A stretch of 61,372 nt of DNA from a virus: positions 1 through 61,372 of the IMG/VR virus record IMGVR_UViG_3300025030_000109; one strand, given 5' to 3'. The position numbers were made by a program, and so were the translations under genes. Below the pieces are notes generated by a model. That model searched no databases. It was given only the letters and a program-made list of their open reading frames with translations, and was not told the origin of the DNA. Below, piece by piece: positions 40,416-46,942 of this stretch (its first letter is position 1; every line of letters starts with the position of its first letter).

Positions 40416-40586
40416 TTATGTGGATAACTTCTTGCGGTCGCTTTTCTTCACCCGGCGACTCTGCTTCCTGATCGTCGGTCGGAGTGCGCCCAGCATGTCC
40501 AGCTCCCTCCTCTGCTCCGGCGAGACGCTCCCCAGGATCGGACCCAGGGAACGCAGTTCGCGGGTTACTTCGTCGTCTTCAGTCAT
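40416..40586 (-). CDS. Small basic protein
   Basis: A 56-residue protein with an acidic N-terminus (MTEDDEVTREL) and a very basic end (RKQSRRVKKSDRKKL). AAGGAGA lies seven bases before the ATG. It overlaps the HNH-AP2 endonuclease by eight bases. It may bind nucleic acid; no family recognised. Confidence 0.6.
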   Translation of the reverse strand: MTEDDEVTRELRSLGPILGSVSPEQRRELDMLGALRPTIRKQSRRVKKSDRKKLST

Positions 40587-41091
40587 TCATGCTTCTCCTT
40601 TCGTAGTAAGCACCCTCGTAGTCGGGGTGAAAGTTGGGGCAGGCGAACTCTCCAAAGAGTTCCCGAGCCTTGCGGTCGTAAGCAAAAGCTGCTTCTATGG
40701 TGGATAGGTATTCCCCAATGTGGGCCTGTTTTCCAGCGTGTGTAATTCTCGCTTCCCACTTTAGGCCGCCTTTCCGTGCGTGGACACCTTTTAGCTTGTG
40801 GGCACTACGTCGACCATTCATCTTATTCTGGCTATTGCTGGCTACACGCAAATTGTGCCGTTGGTTGTTGGTGCCGTCCCCATCTTTGTGGTCGACCAAG
40901 ACTCCATCAGGAGCATCCAAAATCAACCGGTGCATCCTGACCTTGCGACCCACACCTTGCACAAAAATCGTTGTTCGGGCGTACCAGTTGTTGCCGATAC
41001 CTACATAGTGCCACCGGTGCTTGGACACCAAAGCATAATCAGCATCATCTACGAGTGCAATTTTGCCGTGGGTGAGTGGAATTTCTTTCAT
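40579..41091 (-). CDS. HNH-AP2 homing endonuclease
   Basis: A 170-residue protein of the common phage HNH-AP2 type: KIALVDDADYALVSKHRW at the start, HNH core VLVDHKDGDGTNNQRHNLR in the middle, and an AP2 DNA-binding domain (KGVHARKGGLKWEARI, then HIGEYLSTIEAAFAYDRKA). It is a free-standing homing gene placed between the nucleotide kinase and the Cas4/RecB-like nuclease. The ATG overlaps the preceding stop; its GC content is clearly lower than that of its neighbours, a sign of mobility. Confidence 0.9.
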   Translation of the reverse strand: MKEIPLTHGKIALVDDADYALVSKHRWHYVGIGNNWYARTTIFVQGVGRKVRMHRLILDAPDGVLVDHKDGDGTNNQRHNLRVASNSQNKMNGRRSAHKLKGVHARKGGLKWEARITHAGKQAHIGEYLSTIEAAFAYDRKARELFGEFACPNFHPDYEGAYYERRSMND

Positions 41092-42260
41092 GCTTTGCGG
41101 CCGTTGTGGTGGCATGTGAAGTCGTCGCAGTAACCCTTGCAGAGGAAGTTGGGCGTGCAGGGGAAAACTTCGTCCCGGCACGCTATCTCCATACGATCTG
41201 TGATGCAGTCGATCTTGTCCCAGATACCTGGGATGTCGGCCTTAGTGATAGGCTTCTTCAACCCCACCAGAGCCTTTGCAGGGTCGGCCTCTTTTACAAA
41301 GATAAGCTTGCCATCAGCCTCATCAAACTGCTCACCTAAGTGGAGGTCCGCAAGAGCAACCATAACCTCCACTTGGAAGGGGTCGTCCTTAATCTTCCCA
41401 AACTTCCAGTCGATGTAATTGAGTTTACGATCTTTTATGGCCAGTACGTCGCCCCTGCCTCGAATGTGGACAATTTTATTGTCCCACCAGCCGCAGGGTT
41501 TTTTGTCCTTGGTGCAGCATAGTTCTTTCTCGACGTGGATAGTTGCCCCGGAGCGTATGAAGAAGTCACAGTACCGTTTGACCTTGGGGAGGTATGTGGG
41601 GTCGACAGGCAGGCTCTTGCCTTGCGCGTTCAGCAGGTAGTTCTCCGCAGTCTTATGCCCACGGTTCCCGTCTGCCATCGCCTCCGACTCGACGTACTTC
41701 ACGGTCTTGAAATACTTGGATGCAGCCCATTTACGTGCGCAAAGCATAAACTCCGTCATGCCTGTGTAGCTGGTGGCGAAGTGAGGCTGCGGGTCGATGA
41801 GGCGCTTCTTGGCGAGCACCTGCGGCGCGGACGCGACGAGCGCGTCGAGGTTCAGTCCTAAGTCGAGGTCGAGATTCAAAATTTCCTCCTGGGGTTCAAG
41901 ATCATTAAAAACAAGGGGCTCGGTCTGTCCCGAAGGCACCGACCCGTAGACCTCGACCTGAAGGTCTCCTTTCGGGGGTGACTGCAGGTGCTTAGTCCTC
42001 TGGAAATACTCCTGCACTTTAGCCGGTACGGGCCAGGCACCGGGGCGCAGGGTCGCGGTCTGCACGTCCCTCTGCCAGGTGCGCCACAGGTTCACAGGAG
42101 GCAAGGCGTTCGCCCCGCGGCGGTCGGGGCCTGCGACCAGGTAGCCGCAGCGGTCGGAGACGGGCTTCTTGGACTCCAGCACGTCCGGGAAGGTCAGGGT
42201 GTGGAGCAGGACGGAGGCGGCCGGCGCGGTGCGCTCGGGGGGTAGGACTTCGATGGTCAC
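41088..42260 (-). CDS. Cas4/RecB-like exonuclease with Cys cluster
   Basis: A 390-residue protein from a GTG start that overlaps the previous stop (GTGA). The nuclease part lies in the second half: FMLCARKW, GHKTAENYLL, GRGDVLAIKDRKLNYIDWKFG (Asp plus D-x-K type site: GDV and IDWK), then CRDEVFPCTPNFLCKGYC followed by another Cys, fitting an iron-sulfur or zinc staple as in Cas4 and AddB. The first 130 residues are Pro-rich and poorly ordered. It would resect DNA ends for recombination. Confidence 0.8.
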   Translation of the reverse strand: MTIEVLPPERTAPAASVLLHTLTFPDVLESKKPVSDRCGYLVAGPDRRGANALPPVNLWRTWQRDVQTATLRPGAWPVPAKVQEYFQRTKHLQSPPKGDLQVEVYGSVPSGQTEPLVFNDLEPQEEILNLDLDLGLNLDALVASAPQVLAKKRLIDPQPHFATSYTGMTEFMLCARKWAASKYFKTVKYVESEAMADGNRGHKTAENYLLNAQGKSLPVDPTYLPKVKRYCDFFIRSGATIHVEKELCCTKDKKPCGWWDNKIVHIRGRGDVLAIKDRKLNYIDWKFGKIKDDPFQVEVMVALADLHLGEQFDEADGKLIFVKEADPAKALVGLKKPITKADIPGIWDKIDCITDRMEIACRDEVFPCTPNFLCKGYCDDFTCHHNGRKA

Positions 42261-42625: not shown

Positions 42626-43686
42626 ATCTCCTCCCTCCACTCCCTCGCCACCGGCTGGAACGGCACGCCGGCGTCGGTCAGCAGGCTGTACTCGATGGTG
42701 AGGCGCCGGCCGATGTAGTTCGCAGCGTTTCTCAACACCTCGGCTTTCTCCTCGTGGCTCCCAGGTGCCACCGGCCGCACCTCCTTGCCGTCATCGGTGA
42801 GGCAGACGCAGATCACCGTCCCGCTCTTCTCCGCCTGGATGATGTCCTTGACCGTGACCTCCATGTCCAGGAACTCCTTGATCTTGATCAGCGAGTTGCT
42901 CCGGATGCCGTCTTCGTAGGGCGCGTCGTTGGTTCGGAGGATGAGGCCCTCGAAGCGGCGCGCACGCGCCTGGGCGAAAAGGTACGCCTGGTTCTCCTCA
43001 CTCTTGTAGGGCGCGTTCGCCAGAACTGTTGCAGGGGCGTCGGTGCCCCACGCAGGGATCAGATCCGAAAGCTCCAGGTACCGATCCAGAAAGGTATCCA
43101 GAGAGATGAGATCGTAACAGAAGTACTTAAGCTTCAGCGACTCGGGCTGCTGTTTCTTGATCCACGAGCCGATGGTCTGCAATTTCGTCCCGTGGTGGTA
43201 GAGCTCGCCGTCGATGAAGGTCCCCTCGGGGAGCCGGGGCTCCAGGAACTCGGAGACATGGGGGAGCGTGATCGGCTTCCCCTGCCGGCTGTAGAGCAGG
43301 ATCTCGCCGTCCTGCTTGGTGGCGAGGCAGCGATGCCCGTCCAGCTTCAGCTGGAGTACGGCGCCCTCGTGGTTGATCTTCTTGACTTTCTTCAGCGGCT
43401 GCGCCAGCATAGGGAGGGGCAGGCCCATCTGGTTCGTCTTCCCCTGGAGCGCCTCCTCGCGGGTGTCGACGTAGCCTCGGTCCCGCTGGCGGGAGATCCT
43501 GGAGCGGACACGGAGGGCGACCTGCTCGACGATCGATCGGCCGGAGGCATTGGTGGTGACCGTCTCGCTGTGCTCCACCTCCTGACCTCCCTCGACCGTC
43601 GCGTGGGCGATGGTGATGTATGGTCCTGTGGCGCGGATGCGCCAGGTGCCGATGCCGTTTACATGCTTGCGGTACAGGGTGAGCAT
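42622..43686 (-). CDS. ATP-dependent DNA ligase with WGR-like N-terminus
   Basis: A 354-residue protein. Residues 1-72 look like a WGR domain (LYRKHVNGIGTWRIRATG, ISRQRDRGY), a nucleic-acid-binding fold known from PARPs and some ligases. The ligase part has the nucleotide-transfer lysine in KLDG (Lys114), IDGELYHH, EGLILR near 245, and SLIKIKEF with the motif V lysines. It seals nicks after replication and recombination. AAAGGAGG precedes the ATG. It lies 14 bases after the polymerase gene. Confidence 0.88.
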   Translation of the reverse strand: MLTLYRKHVNGIGTWRIRATGPYITIAHATVEGGQEVEHSETVTTNASGRSIVEQVALRVRSRISRQRDRGYVDTREEALQGKTNQMGLPLPMLAQPLKKVKKINHEGAVLQLKLDGHRCLATKQDGEILLYSRQGKPITLPHVSEFLEPRLPEGTFIDGELYHHGTKLQTIGSWIKKQQPESLKLKYFCYDLISLDTFLDRYLELSDLIPAWGTDAPATVLANAPYKSEENQAYLFAQARARRFEGLILRTNDAPYEDGIRSNSLIKIKEFLDMEVTVKDIIQAEKSGTVICVCLTDDGKEVRPVAPGSHEEKAEVLRNAANYIGRRLTIEYSLLTDAGVPFQPVAREWREEI

Positions 43687-43699
43687 TTCAATCCTCCTT

Positions 43700-46675
43700 T
43701 TAGAGACTCTTCAAATCGCCCCAAGACTCAGGGCTCAGTTTGGCATCGACGGGGAAGGTGATCGGGAGATCTACACCCCAGGCTTTTTTATAAGGCAGGT
43801 TCGACAGCACATGCTTGAAGGTCTCGGCGGCCTGACGAGCCACGGCGTGCGGGAAGATGAAGAACAGGCCGTCGTGGAGCTCGAAGTAGAAATAGCCGTT
43901 GAACTTGGGGAGCAGGTTGCGCGCTACGGCAAGCGCTAGATATTTCTGGTCTCCACCTGTTCCCTGAATAGGGTAGTTGATGGCGGAACTCTCCATCTCC
44001 CAGGCGTCACGACCCGCCCACGAGCCCAGAAGCTGCACCCTGCGGCCGGCGAAGGTCTCAGCATACCCTAGCTGACGACACTTTGCTATCTGAGTCTGCC
44101 AATAGCCAGAGTTGCAGGCACCGCGGCCTCCGTTCGGGCCACCCGAGACTTTGACGAAGGTCGCCTTGTAGGTGGCGAGGAACTGCTTGACCGCCTCTTC
44201 CTGGATGTCCAGCTCGTAATCGACCCGGGCTTTCTTCGTTGCACTTTTAGAGCCAATTCTGTACTGGAAGCTCAGGTTGCTGTTGGAAATCAGGTAGTTA
44301 GATACAGTGAAGCGATTGCGGGGTCCGGCGTTGGTGATATCGTACACCCTTTTGGTTTGCAGCTTGGAGCACACCATCGCTCCACTATTTGATCCAGAGT
44401 CAGCCCCTTTGAGACGAGATTCTGAACTACGATCTCCGCATACCTGACTTCCGGGTGCATTGTCCGGAGTACGTGATACACATGCTTTCTGGGTATCTGC
44501 TTGCCTCTGTACTCCAGGTACTTGTTTCCACGCTTGTTCTGTAAATTCTCCGCTCTCATCAAAAGCCTCAAGTTCCCCGGCTCGTAGTGGCCATCGTTCT
44601 CTTTCCGGTCGATGTCCAGCTTCAGGTACGTTGGATGTGGTAACTCCTTCAGAACGTAGGCTATCGCCTCCGCTACCGTCTTGAATCTGAACTGAATCCC
44701 ACGCCCTCCGTAGTTCTTGTACGACAGGTCTTTGATGTTCTCGCACCGCTGCTTCATCGCGTTGCACCGCTTCTGCACTCGGGCTACTGCCGCGCTGCTG
44801 ATCATCGCGTGACCCTCGTTGGTATGCCGCATCCGGGTTGCGCACGCCTTGCACTGCGTAGCCTTCCCAGATTTCAGGTTGTCCTTGTTCACCCATAAGC
44901 CGCTGCCGCATTTCGTGCAGAGACAGTCGACCTTCAGGACTTTCCCTTCGCGCATCAAATTCTGCGAGACGATCTTCAGGAACCCGAATTGCGAATTTAC
45001 CATCTCCGGTCTGAGCAAGGCGGCTTCCCGCTGCGGCGGCCTGTCCGAACTGGCACCAACTACCGTCCTCCAGATAAACCATGTGGTCGAGCGTTGCTGT
45101 GAGTCCTGCATACGTGATAGTCTCCTTTTCGCCTTGATACACCGATCCTGTGTGCGCGACGAACTCTACCCCATCCCATACTCTCATGTCAAGAGAAACT
45201 TTCTCTATAGCGACTAGGCCACAGTCAGTCAGAACAAGCTCACCCTCCGCCACGCAGAACTTCCCCAGCTTTCTCTGAAGGTTCGCCTCGGCGTCGTCGG
45301 CCGCCACCCGCTGAATCAGGGTGCGGTAGTCGATCCCCGCGATCTGCGCTCCCATGTAGGAGTGCGCGTCCTCGCCAGGTTCCCGCAGGGAGAGCATGGT
45401 CTCGTCGCCGGACGCGACAGCCATCCAGCCGAACTCTTGGCCGGCGAAGTCGAGCTCCACAAGCGTGTACCCTTCGGGCGGCCTGATCAGGCGCCGAAAG
45501 TCCTTGCCTCGTTTCCACTGGTGCAAGGCGATCCCTGTCGGGAACTCCTCGTTGTTGGTCCCCAAATCCTTGTCGCCCTTGCGCTTCTGGCTGGAACTGT
45601 AGGTCATCCTGGAGCTGTACGTGGAGAAGATCCTGGCACCCGGGCGGACGCAGCCGTCACCGTTGTAGGCCAGGCTCTTCAGCGTCCCCTCGGCGTACTT
45701 GGTGCAGTTCCCCTTAGCCTCGCGCACATCCTTCAAGAGCTTCGCCCTGGGGTCGATGAAAGCGAGCTCGTAGAGCGCGTACTTGTCGGTGCTGGGCGCC
45801 TGAGTCTTCTTGGACACACCCTGGATCGGCAGGCCCCATGTATCGTAGAGGAGCGTAGCCAACTGCTTGGGACTTCCCAGATTCACGAAATTGGTCTCCG
45901 GATTCTCCGCCTGAAGCGTCCGCAGCTGCTTTGCCGTGAGCCCGCTCTCGACGAAACCCATCCCCGGGTTAGCCTCCAACAGCGCGGCACGAGCCTTGTC
46001 TCCATCCTTGAGCAGCTGATCTTTCAGCGCCAGGGCTTTCTCCTTCGACGACTTGATACCCAAGACGTGAGTCTTCGCCACCTGCGGGATGCTCTGCGCC
46101 TCGATGAGCGCCGCGCGCCTCTGCTGAGGCGTCAGGTGACTCCAGAACATCTCTCCCAGGCGCACGGCGAAGCGTGTGTCCTCCTTACACCGGAAGAGGA
46201 GCAGCTTCAACTCCTCGGGATCTCTGGTCTGGAAATTGGTGAAGTCCTTGAACCCTGCCTCGTCCGGGAAGAACTCATGCATGGCGGCTTCCAGCTTGTA
46301 GGACTTCCGCTTGGCCGCCGGCACCTCGTCGCCCTCGGGAGCCACAACCCAATGCTTCCACAGCAACATGGAGTCCAACCACTTCAGCCGGAAGACCAGG
46401 TCCTCAAGACCGAGAGCGACCAGGAAGGCGGCGTCGAAGGCTACGTTCCAGCCGCAGATGTAAAGGTCCTGCGCGAGTATCTGCTCCAGGGAGCGGCGTA
46501 TCAGGTCGGTTTTAGGGTAGAGCTGCCCGACGGATTTCTCACCGAAGGTCCACGCAACTGCGGAGACCCAGGCAGCGCCGGAGCAAGCTCGGAAGGGTTG
46601 CAGAGCGTACTCGGGGAGCGATCCCTGGGTCTCCAGGTCGAAGCCTGCAACCTGCGTGTTGAAGTCTATGTTCAA
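43700..46675 (-). CDS. Family A DNA polymerase, interrupted by an intein
   Basis: A 991-codon frame from TTG (GGAGG six bases upstream); after removal of the 325-residue intein (474-798) the polymerase has 666 residues. N-terminal 3'-5' exonuclease: FDLE (Asp13, Glu15), GWNVAFD (Asn77, Asp81), CKED (Asp166). Polymerase domain: motif A LVELDFAGQE (Asp409), motif B RKLGKF joined to SNLSFQYRIG after splicing, and motif C ELHDG (His934, Asp935 in the unspliced count). The intein thus breaks the finger helix that binds incoming dNTP, so the enzyme can work only after splicing. It is the main replicative enzyme, next to ligase and behind an early promoter. Confidence 0.93.
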   Translation of the reverse strand: MNIDFNTQVAGFDLETQGSLPEYALQPFRACSGAAWVSAVAWTFGEKSVGQLYPKTDLIRRSLEQILAQDLYICGWNVAFDAAFLVALGLEDLVFRLKWLDSMLLWKHWVVAPEGDEVPAAKRKSYKLEAAMHEFFPDEAGFKDFTNFQTRDPEELKLLLFRCKEDTRFAVRLGEMFWSHLTPQQRRAALIEAQSIPQVAKTHVLGIKSSKEKALALKDQLLKDGDKARAALLEANPGMGFVESGLTAKQLRTLQAENPETNFVNLGSPKQLATLLYDTWGLPIQGVSKKTQAPSTDKYALYELAFIDPRAKLLKDVREAKGNCTKYAEGTLKSLAYNGDGCVRPGARIFSTYSSRMTYSSSQKRKGDKDLGTNNEEFPTGIALHQWKRGKDFRRLIRPPEGYTLVELDFAGQEFGWMAVASGDETMLSLREPGEDAHSYMGAQIAGIDYRTLIQRVAADDAEANLQRKLGKFCVAEGELVLTDCGLVAIEKVSLDMRVWDGVEFVAHTGSVYQGEKETITYAGLTATLDHMVYLEDGSWCQFGQAAAAGSRLAQTGDGKFAIRVPEDRLAEFDARRESPEGRLSLHEMRQRLMGEQGQPEIWEGYAVQGVRNPDAAYQRGSRDDQQRGSSPSAEAVQRDEAAVREHQRPVVQELRRAWDSVQIQDGSGGDSLRSEGVTTSNVPEAGHRPERERWPLRAGELEAFDESGEFTEQAWKQVPGVQRQADTQKACVSRTPDNAPGSQVCGDRSSESRLKGADSGSNSGAMVCSKLQTKRVYDITNAGPRNRFTVSNYLISNSNLSFQYRIGSKSATKKARVDYELDIQEEAVKQFLATYKATFVKVSGGPNGGRGACNSGYWQTQIAKCRQLGYAETFAGRRVQLLGSWAGRDAWEMESSAINYPIQGTGGDQKYLALAVARNLLPKFNGYFYFELHDGLFFIFPHAVARQAAETFKHVLSNLPYKKAWGVDLPITFPVDAKLSPESWGDLKSL
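44282..45256 (-). mobile_element. Intein in DNA polymerase motif B
   Basis: Residues 474-798 of the polymerase frame. Block A starts with Cys1 (CVAEGELVLTDCGLV), block B is GLTATLDHMVY with the T-x-x-H site, and the end has block F (RVYDITNAGPRNRF) and block G (NYLISN) followed by Ser as the first downstream residue. The penultimate residue is Ser rather than His, an accepted variant. Between block B and block F, in this frame, about 190 residues are Arg/Gln/Ser/Gly-rich without fold character, because that stretch holds an endonuclease gene in another frame. Confidence 0.92.
44290..45111 (-). CDS. HNH homing endonuclease nested out of frame in the intein
   Basis: A frame shifted by one against the polymerase, wholly within the intein. 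From its inner ATG at 45003 (237 residues) it reads as a complete homing enzyme: MVNSQFGFLKIVS, CLCTKCGSGLW and CKAC (zinc knuckle), RCNAMKQRCENIKD, YKNYGGRGIQF, LDIDRKENDGHYEPGNLR and a C-terminal DNA-binding part. It is of the same family as the enzyme at 33281. Two starts are possible: 45111 with AAGGAG ten bases upstream inside block B, or 45003, where GGAG touches the ATG. The endonuclease part begins exactly where the intein's N-terminal splicing domain ends; the stop lies eight bases before the intein end. Confidence 0.88.
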   Translation of the reverse strand: MQDSQQRSTTWFIWRTVVGASSDRPPQREAALLRPEMVNSQFGFLKIVSQNLMREGKVLKVDCLCTKCGSGLWVNKDNLKSGKATQCKACATRMRHTNEGHAMISSAAVARVQKRCNAMKQRCENIKDLSYKNYGGRGIQFRFKTVAEAIAYVLKELPHPTYLKLDIDRKENDGHYEPGNLRLLMRAENLQNKRGNKYLEYRGKQIPRKHVYHVLRTMHPEVRYAEIVVQNLVSKGLTLDQIVERWCAPSCKPKGCTISPTPDPAIASLYLTT

Positions 46676-46707
46676 GTCCCGCCTCCAGTTTCATCGTAGT
46701 TCAGATC

Positions 46708-46747
46708 TTTATACGCTTGACTTCAGGCGGAGTCAAGAACTTTATTC
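46708..46747 (-). promoter_or_regulatory. Early promoter for DNA polymerase, conserved phage type
   Basis: Read leftward: GAATAAAGTTC, -35 TTGACT (46736-46731), 17 bases, -10 TATAAA (46713-46708), 32 bases before the polymerase TTG start. Confidence 0.78.
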
Positions 46748-46773
46748 GGGGTTCGTTCATCGCTTCGCTCCCC

Positions 46774-46942
46774 TTAGTACTGCCCCTTGATCTCGGCCAG
46801 GAAGAACCGGCCCACGGACGGTGCCTGCTTCATCGCCTCGAAGACGTGCTCGGGGACCCCCTGGGTAGCTGTAGGTGCCGCCCTTGCAGAAGGTGACTTC
46901 GAGGATCTGATCCTCGGCGTCGTAGGAGTAGCTGTCGATCAT
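46774..46942 (-). pseudogene. KTSC-domain protein, frameshifted
   Basis: The first 27 codons (MIDSYSYDAEDQILEVTF, then KGGTYSYPG) and, one frame over, the remainder (VPEHVFEAMKQAPSVGRFF, ending IKGQY and a stop at 46774) together make a whole KTSC domain, a small RNA- or DNA-contact domain frequent in phages. A run of five G (about 46855-46860 on this strand) holds one base too many. Either the gene is broken or the assembly has a homopolymer error. As it stands, translation leaves the domain after residue 28 and stops at 46757. Confidence 0.8.

Follow-up and report, generated by a model that had tools for sequence, protein, structure and literature searches.

The viral contig analysed here, 61,372 nt long in full (IMG/VR record IMGVR_UViG_3300025030_000109; hereafter the window), carries on its minus strand a family-A DNA polymerase (PolA) gene interrupted by an intein. 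Sequence comparison indicates, with a probability of about 0.86, that the insert is a composite mobile element, a PolA intein with its endonuclease encoded by a distinct HNH gene that lies within it in the +1 frame. An earlier note, written from the letters of the window alone, had proposed that the intein was invaded by a separate HNH gene and that both frames were kept open, and this proposal was supported by the comparative data.

The intein and the HNH gene nested in it

The polymerase open reading frame (ORF; 46675-43700) showed no break anywhere along its length, and the HNH ORF (45111-44290) was fully open in the +1 frame relative to it. The features of the locus are listed below, with the confidence of structure models given as the predicted local distance difference test (pLDDT).

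43700-46675, minus strand: PolA ORF with the intein inside (PF00476, 1.6e-28; phrog_17, 4e-45)
45257-46675 and 43700-44281, minus strand: N-extein and C-extein, respectively, parts of the PolA ORF
44282-45256, minus strand: intein of 325 residues, Cys1 to Asn325, with Ser at +1; conserved splicing blocks in alignment A4; model resembling solved inteins
45002-45256, minus strand: N-terminal splicing block, residues 1-85; pLDDT ~96 to residue 80 and no long low-confidence run before residue 86; substitutions at intein codon position 3
44381-45001, minus strand: central part of the intein frame, free of stops and predicted to form a disordered linker, its DNA coding for HNH as well; pLDDT ~40; 0 stops vs 6.7 expected
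44282-44380, minus strand: C-terminal splicing block, residues 293-325; pLDDT ~95-97 for residues 301-325; substitutions at intein codon position 3
45122-45127, minus strand: Shine-Dalgarno (SD)-like AAGGAG, 10 nt before the ATG; SD and ATG at this place in 56/84 relatives, 15.3 expected
45109-45111, minus strand: likeliest HNH start codon, ATG (intein nt 145); downstream stretch stop-free in 84 relatives
45001-45003, minus strand: alternative HNH start ATG, where homology begins; no SD at the usual distance across relatives
44290-45111, minus strand: HNH endonuclease ORF of 273 aa in the +1 frame, its stop 8 bases short of the intein end (phrog_374, 3e-24)
44311-45003, minus strand: HNH core shared with relatives (profile match 5e-70); model pLDDT 83.7; wobble at HNH codon position 3

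The intein is flanked by ...LQRKLGKF upstream and SNLSFQYRIG downstream. The residues by which an intein is recognised (Cys1, T-x-x-H in block B, a C-terminal Asn and Cys, Ser or Thr at +1) were all found in the window, namely Cys1 (45256), T-L-D-H in block B, Asn325 (44282) and Ser at +1, together with YDITNAG..NRF in block F, which agrees with the complete intein described in the earlier note. The splicing domain and the HNH protein of the window were unmatched in Pfam and NCBIfam searches, and the only PHROGs match over the intein was phrog_26005 of unknown function (1.3e-05, polymerase residues 493-538). PHROGs did identify the HNH protein (phrog_374, phrog_3377 at 1.2e-19 and others), and its C-x2-C...C-x2-C knuckle and NYGGRGI / LDIDRKENDGHYEPGN core fit the HNH enzyme with a zinc knuckle that had been read in the shifted frame. 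The position of its stop, 8 bases before the intein end, was likewise confirmed. Two details of that description had to be corrected. The HNH gene had been said to begin exactly where the splicing domain ends; its likeliest start, ATG 45111, lies inside the N-terminal splicing block, with homology from 45003, and the tail of the HNH frame overlaps the conserved C-terminal splicing block. The stretch open in both frames is not about 190 codons long but about 230 when counted on the HNH core or 273 when counted on the ORF. The HNH protein is presumably the homing endonuclease driving the spread of the intein; its +1 position departs from the in-frame endonuclease that defines large inteins.

The AlphaFold2 model of the intein had a pLDDT of ~96 for residues 1-80 and 301-325 and of ~40 for the ~205 residues between them, so that the middle, called featureless in the earlier note, is predicted to be disordered. 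The top Foldseek matches of this model were inteins and one intein-like domain (probability 1.00), with a best E-value of 4.9e-3, which reached only about 5e-3 because the query is mostly disordered. In the model the two ends of the insert thus form the intein (Hint) fold. The model of the HNH frame was ordered (pLDDT 83.7). Judged by its predicted fold and catalytic residues, the window element is an intein, yet it lies outside the composite type with an in-frame endonuclease.

Elsewhere in the window, a second, free-standing endonuclease-like ORF (40579-41181, minus strand), of AP2/HNH type by eye, overlaps the end of ORF 41088-42260.

Distribution of inteins with an out-of-frame HNH gene

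A tblastn search with the HNH frame against phage genomes revealed relatives inside annotated DNA polymerase genes of Streptococcus phages Javan113/255 and PhiSdyV1524, Gardnerella phage AB1 and EBPR siphovirus 2, and inside a long polymerase-like ORF of Vibrio phage 97.13, the record of which is unannotated. All of them had an intein in the polymerase frame and the HNH match at +1 or +2. Out-of-frame HNH inteins were likewise found in Shewanella phage SFCi1, Caulobacter phages GB2A and RW, Hamiltonella APSE phages and Pseudomonas phage MR14.

A survey seeded with HNH, comprising scans of viral contigs and the loci already collected, gave 93 HNH matches located between the N- and C-terminal blocks of an intein, 63 at +1, 30 at +2 and none in frame, and the intein frame was unbroken in all 93. 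A second survey was seeded with the intein, which avoids conditioning on HNH; its scan seed was alignment A6 and the patterns used came from the N-terminal block. It returned 76 inteins with a +1 HNH and 3 mini-inteins from viral contigs, and 47 and 15, respectively, from bacterial genomes. The nuclease was out of frame in 123/123 long intact inteins of this survey, although distant in-frame relatives could be missed as the seed alignment was made of +1 inteins. The sole in-frame match, locus L296 of Eubacterium plexicaudatum, was a copy 1 nt short (932 nt) with a broken intein frame, in which HNH was in frame with the N-terminal block.

The non-redundant set of HNH elements nested in inteins comprised 127 members from phages and prophages (103 at +1 and 24 at +2). 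The host genes encoded PolA, interrupted at several sites, SF2 helicases (ResIII/Helicase_C), an SNF2-like helicase and a DnaB-like protein, the helicase-gene cases being L187, L182, L209, L244, L227, L175, L154 and L218. The arrangement, taken in the earlier note for a single oddity, is therefore widespread and extends to helicase genes. Four loci carried two out-of-frame HNH inteins in one gene, at +1 and +2 in L056, L136 and L148 and both at +2 in L151. In L213 (445-4479), an intein-bearing PolA was fused to a uracil-DNA glycosylase domain.

At the exact PolA site of the window, the same arrangement was present in three other viral contigs, L159, L160 and L158 (HNH identity to the window 64, 61 and 54%; extein identity 63, 60 and 42%, respectively). 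The closest polymerase, L228/L229 (79% extein identity), had a mini-intein without HNH at this site, and the polymerases of Xp15 and Effie were uninterrupted there (LGKLTNLSCNYRIG and RGKLTNLACNFRIS). The search of related phage polymerases suggested in the earlier note thus found the insertion with the nuclease, as a mini-intein and absent. The intein-free polymerases by themselves only permit cleavage of an empty allele and homing.

Selection on both reading frames

Substitutions were counted by codon position in non-overlapping pairs of elements. In the +1 class, intein codon positions 1/2/3 received 28/16/56% of the substitutions in the N-terminal block, 53/27/20% in the overlap and 28/16/57% in the C-terminal block, and the overlap of the +2 class gave 21/52/28%. 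This pattern implies that the wobble position follows the intein in the splicing blocks and HNH in between; the per-frame comparison proposed in the earlier note therefore showed a switch to the HNH frame on entering the overlap and a return to the intein frame beyond it. Compared with L159, the HNH frame of the window had 67/50/147 substitutions at the three HNH codon positions, and position 3 also predominated in the comparison with L158-L160 as a whole.

The number of stop codons expected was obtained by synonymous shuffling of HNH codons. In the overlap of 55 elements no stop was found in the intein frame vs ~272 expected, whereas the third frame contained 614 vs 610. This test required both blocks in one ORF, and the survey of 93 matches without that requirement gave no exception. 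In the window alone, 0 intein-frame stops were present vs a mean of 6.7 after shuffling, and none of 2000 shuffles was stop-free. Taken together, the wobble switch and the missing stops indicate that the HNH protein is maintained by selection, which in the intein frame acts at least to exclude stops.

Internal start of the nuclease

In the window-like class, an ATG at intein nt 145 is preceded by an SD sequence. The exact SD/ATG motif of the window is expected by chance 0.42 times per 61 kb and hence is not rare, so the weight was placed on its conservation: SD and ATG were present in 56/84 window-class elements vs 15.3 expected from synonymous codon choice. At the start site, the Tyr codon was TAT in 63/78 cases (44% elsewhere, p=3e-11) and the Glu codon was GAG in 54/64 (50% elsewhere, p=2e-8), p-values which are optimistic because the elements are related. 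Between the ATG and the HNH core, no HNH-frame stop was found vs 96.8 expected (84/84 open), whereas upstream of the ATG 305 stops were counted vs 275 expected. A frame that is stop-free only from the ATG on locates the start at this codon and argues against ribosomes entering the frame by a shift further upstream. Translation of HNH thus most likely starts at ATG 45111 behind AAGGAG. Of the two starts considered in the earlier note, this one gained support from the conserved SD/ATG and the open frame behind it, and the one at 45003, with no SD at the usual distance, did not. In the APSE-like class, an NTG codon was found at nt 202 in 10/15 elements (1.6 expected) and in the +2 class an NTG codon lay near nt 77, the SD support being weaker in both.

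Alternative explanations

Several observations weigh against the reading of the insert as an intein carrying a nuclease gene. The window intein lacks the penultimate His (it ends in ISN before the Ser at +1, not in VHN), and the alignment showed that it also lacks the block-F His present in most relatives. These two histidines assist splicing in many inteins, which makes the splicing rate uncertain. The HNH model had no significant match in Foldseek or in a PDB sequence search. Finally, the SD/ATG was retained in 11/19 mini-inteins, so its retention is not specific to nuclease-bearing elements and does not separate full from mini-inteins.

An ordinary intein with an in-frame HNH could be disguised by two compensating sequencing or assembly indels, and indels do occur in metagenomic assemblies, the genome locus L296 being itself frame-broken. 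This explanation is scarcely credible and was rejected, as independent records share the frame relation: it is identical at the identical site in L158, L159 and L160, and occurs in isolated phage genomes and in the 127 non-redundant elements. A base gained near 45000 and one lost near 44390, named in the earlier note as the change that would bring the endonuclease into frame, are excluded by L158-L160 and more than 100 other elements. That HNH is produced by programmed ribosomal frameshifting out of the polymerase frame, as a fusion with N-extein and intein and not as a free protein, is improbable. Both frames lie on the same strand in one mRNA, and frameshifting is common in phages; however, the HNH frame turns stop-free exactly at the conserved SD-preceded ATG and not upstream of it, a point that limits only where a slip could occur.

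It might also be supposed that the insert is removed at the RNA level, as an intron with an HNH gene, or is never removed, as proposed for the ShiLan domain, in which an out-of-frame HNH without splicing was described (PMC11855218), the likeness to an intein being incidental. The two missing histidines of the window intein would fit such a view, but in the intein frame the end blocks show protein-level evolution, they model as an intein and keep Cys1, the block-B His and mostly the C-terminal Asn, and mini-inteins retain the splicing blocks after losing HNH. An Rfam scan of 43600-46800 gave no match up to E=1 and so no intron RNA family, on which ground the intron was rejected; this explanation as a whole is very improbable. 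That the HNH frame is a relic, a silent former gene in an insert kept open solely for the polymerase, is unlikely, though L005, L011, L056 and L156 have broken or truncated HNH frames and mini-inteins are common. The window retains an intact HNH frame, and the excess of substitutions at HNH codon position 3 relative to L158-L160 implies that it was selected until recently at least.

Origins and proposed mechanism

In a tree of HNH proteins, built by a quick method with Shimodaira-Hasegawa-like approximate likelihood ratio test (SH-aLRT) support only and with limited sampling of free-standing HNH genes, three supported clades nested in inteins were resolved: +1 window-like (98), +1 APSE-like (99) and +2 (100). 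The APSE-like clade was placed among free-standing HNH genes. Three clades and two frames suggest at least two, and probably three, separate entries of HNH. With about three origins, each having a 2/3 chance of falling out of frame, the missing in-frame cases cannot show selection against in-frame fusion.

Among relatives, intact, damaged, mini and empty states all exist. In L005, L011, L056 and L156, the HNH frame was truncated or broken and the intein frame was still open, a state that would fit a nuclease decaying before the intein does.

The element could work as follows. One polymerase mRNA would be read in two ways. Ribosomes from the polymerase start would traverse the whole intein, the two splicing blocks would fold together with the ~205-residue middle looped out as a disordered linker, and the intein would splice out to leave an active polymerase. 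Other ribosomes would initiate inside the intein at AAGGAG/ATG 45111 and produce HNH as a free nuclease; by cutting polymerase alleles that lack the intein, it would make the whole element home. The intein frame would be kept stop-free by selection because the polymerase needs it, and the HNH sequence would be maintained while homing persists; once homing fails, HNH would decay or be deleted, leaving a mini-intein. Protein splicing, nuclease activity, cleavage of the empty site and homing are presumed here from sequence. The balance tips slightly towards a broader view, in which inteins with an out-of-frame homing endonuclease form a large, hitherto unrecognised phage class that arose when free HNH genes invaded inteins, on at least two and probably three occasions, and in which the frame shift is a regulatory device uncoupling splicing from nuclease production via an internal ribosome-binding site in conserved intein codons.

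Relation to known systems and significance

The closest published precedent is the ShiLan domain, with the Pacc40 insertion, an out-of-frame HNH in phage methylases (Arsenault et al. 2025, PMC11855218). Both share with the window element an HNH in a shifted frame of an insert through which the host-gene frame also stays open, and a patchy distribution. In those insertions neither intein motifs nor an intein structure nor a ribosome-binding site was detected by the authors (PMC11855218), whereas the window element has an intein splicing domain, contrary to the absence that characterises ShiLan, and an internal SD/ATG that is conserved. Like the window element, large inteins with an in-frame endonuclease have a splicing domain at both ends, an endonuclease between them in the DNA and presumed homing; in the window, the nuclease lies in a different frame and would be made as a protein of its own, and the middle is predicted to be disordered. 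Mini-inteins share their splicing blocks and PolA sites with the HNH-bearing inteins, L228/L229 lying at the exact site of the window, but lack both an endonuclease gene and a long linker. A further parallel is offered by group I introns that carry an endonuclease ORF of their own, such as that of I-PfoP3I in a phage polymerase (PMC3428280), in which a self-removing element likewise encodes a homing endonuclease in its own ORF; removal occurs there at the RNA level, whereas the window insert is an intein by the residues and model described above and matched no RNA family.

The APSE-1 record (NC_000935) annotates the HNH gene P46 as a separate overlapping gene nested in the polymerase gene P45, an architecture identical to that of the window, in the +1 frame; its HNH clade and PolA site are different ones. 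No discussion of the P45/P46 overlap was found in the literature searched, the APSE-1 genome paper itself lying outside the searched text. The search likewise found no description of an intein with an out-of-frame endonuclease, though subscription papers beyond its reach could hold one. As Pfam and NCBIfam match neither part and PHROGs flags HNH only, such elements are easily filed as plain DNA polymerase, and several phage records do annotate them so.

The prevailing view is that composite inteins originate through invasion of a mini-intein by a homing endonuclease gene, the textbook outcome being one fused protein. Here the invader would still be a separate gene in another frame, found as three nuclease clades, in two frames and in several host genes, beside mini-inteins and empty sites, which makes the invasion step directly testable. 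The element would also be a naturally occurring case in which the same DNA encodes two proteins and the internal start has been mapped.
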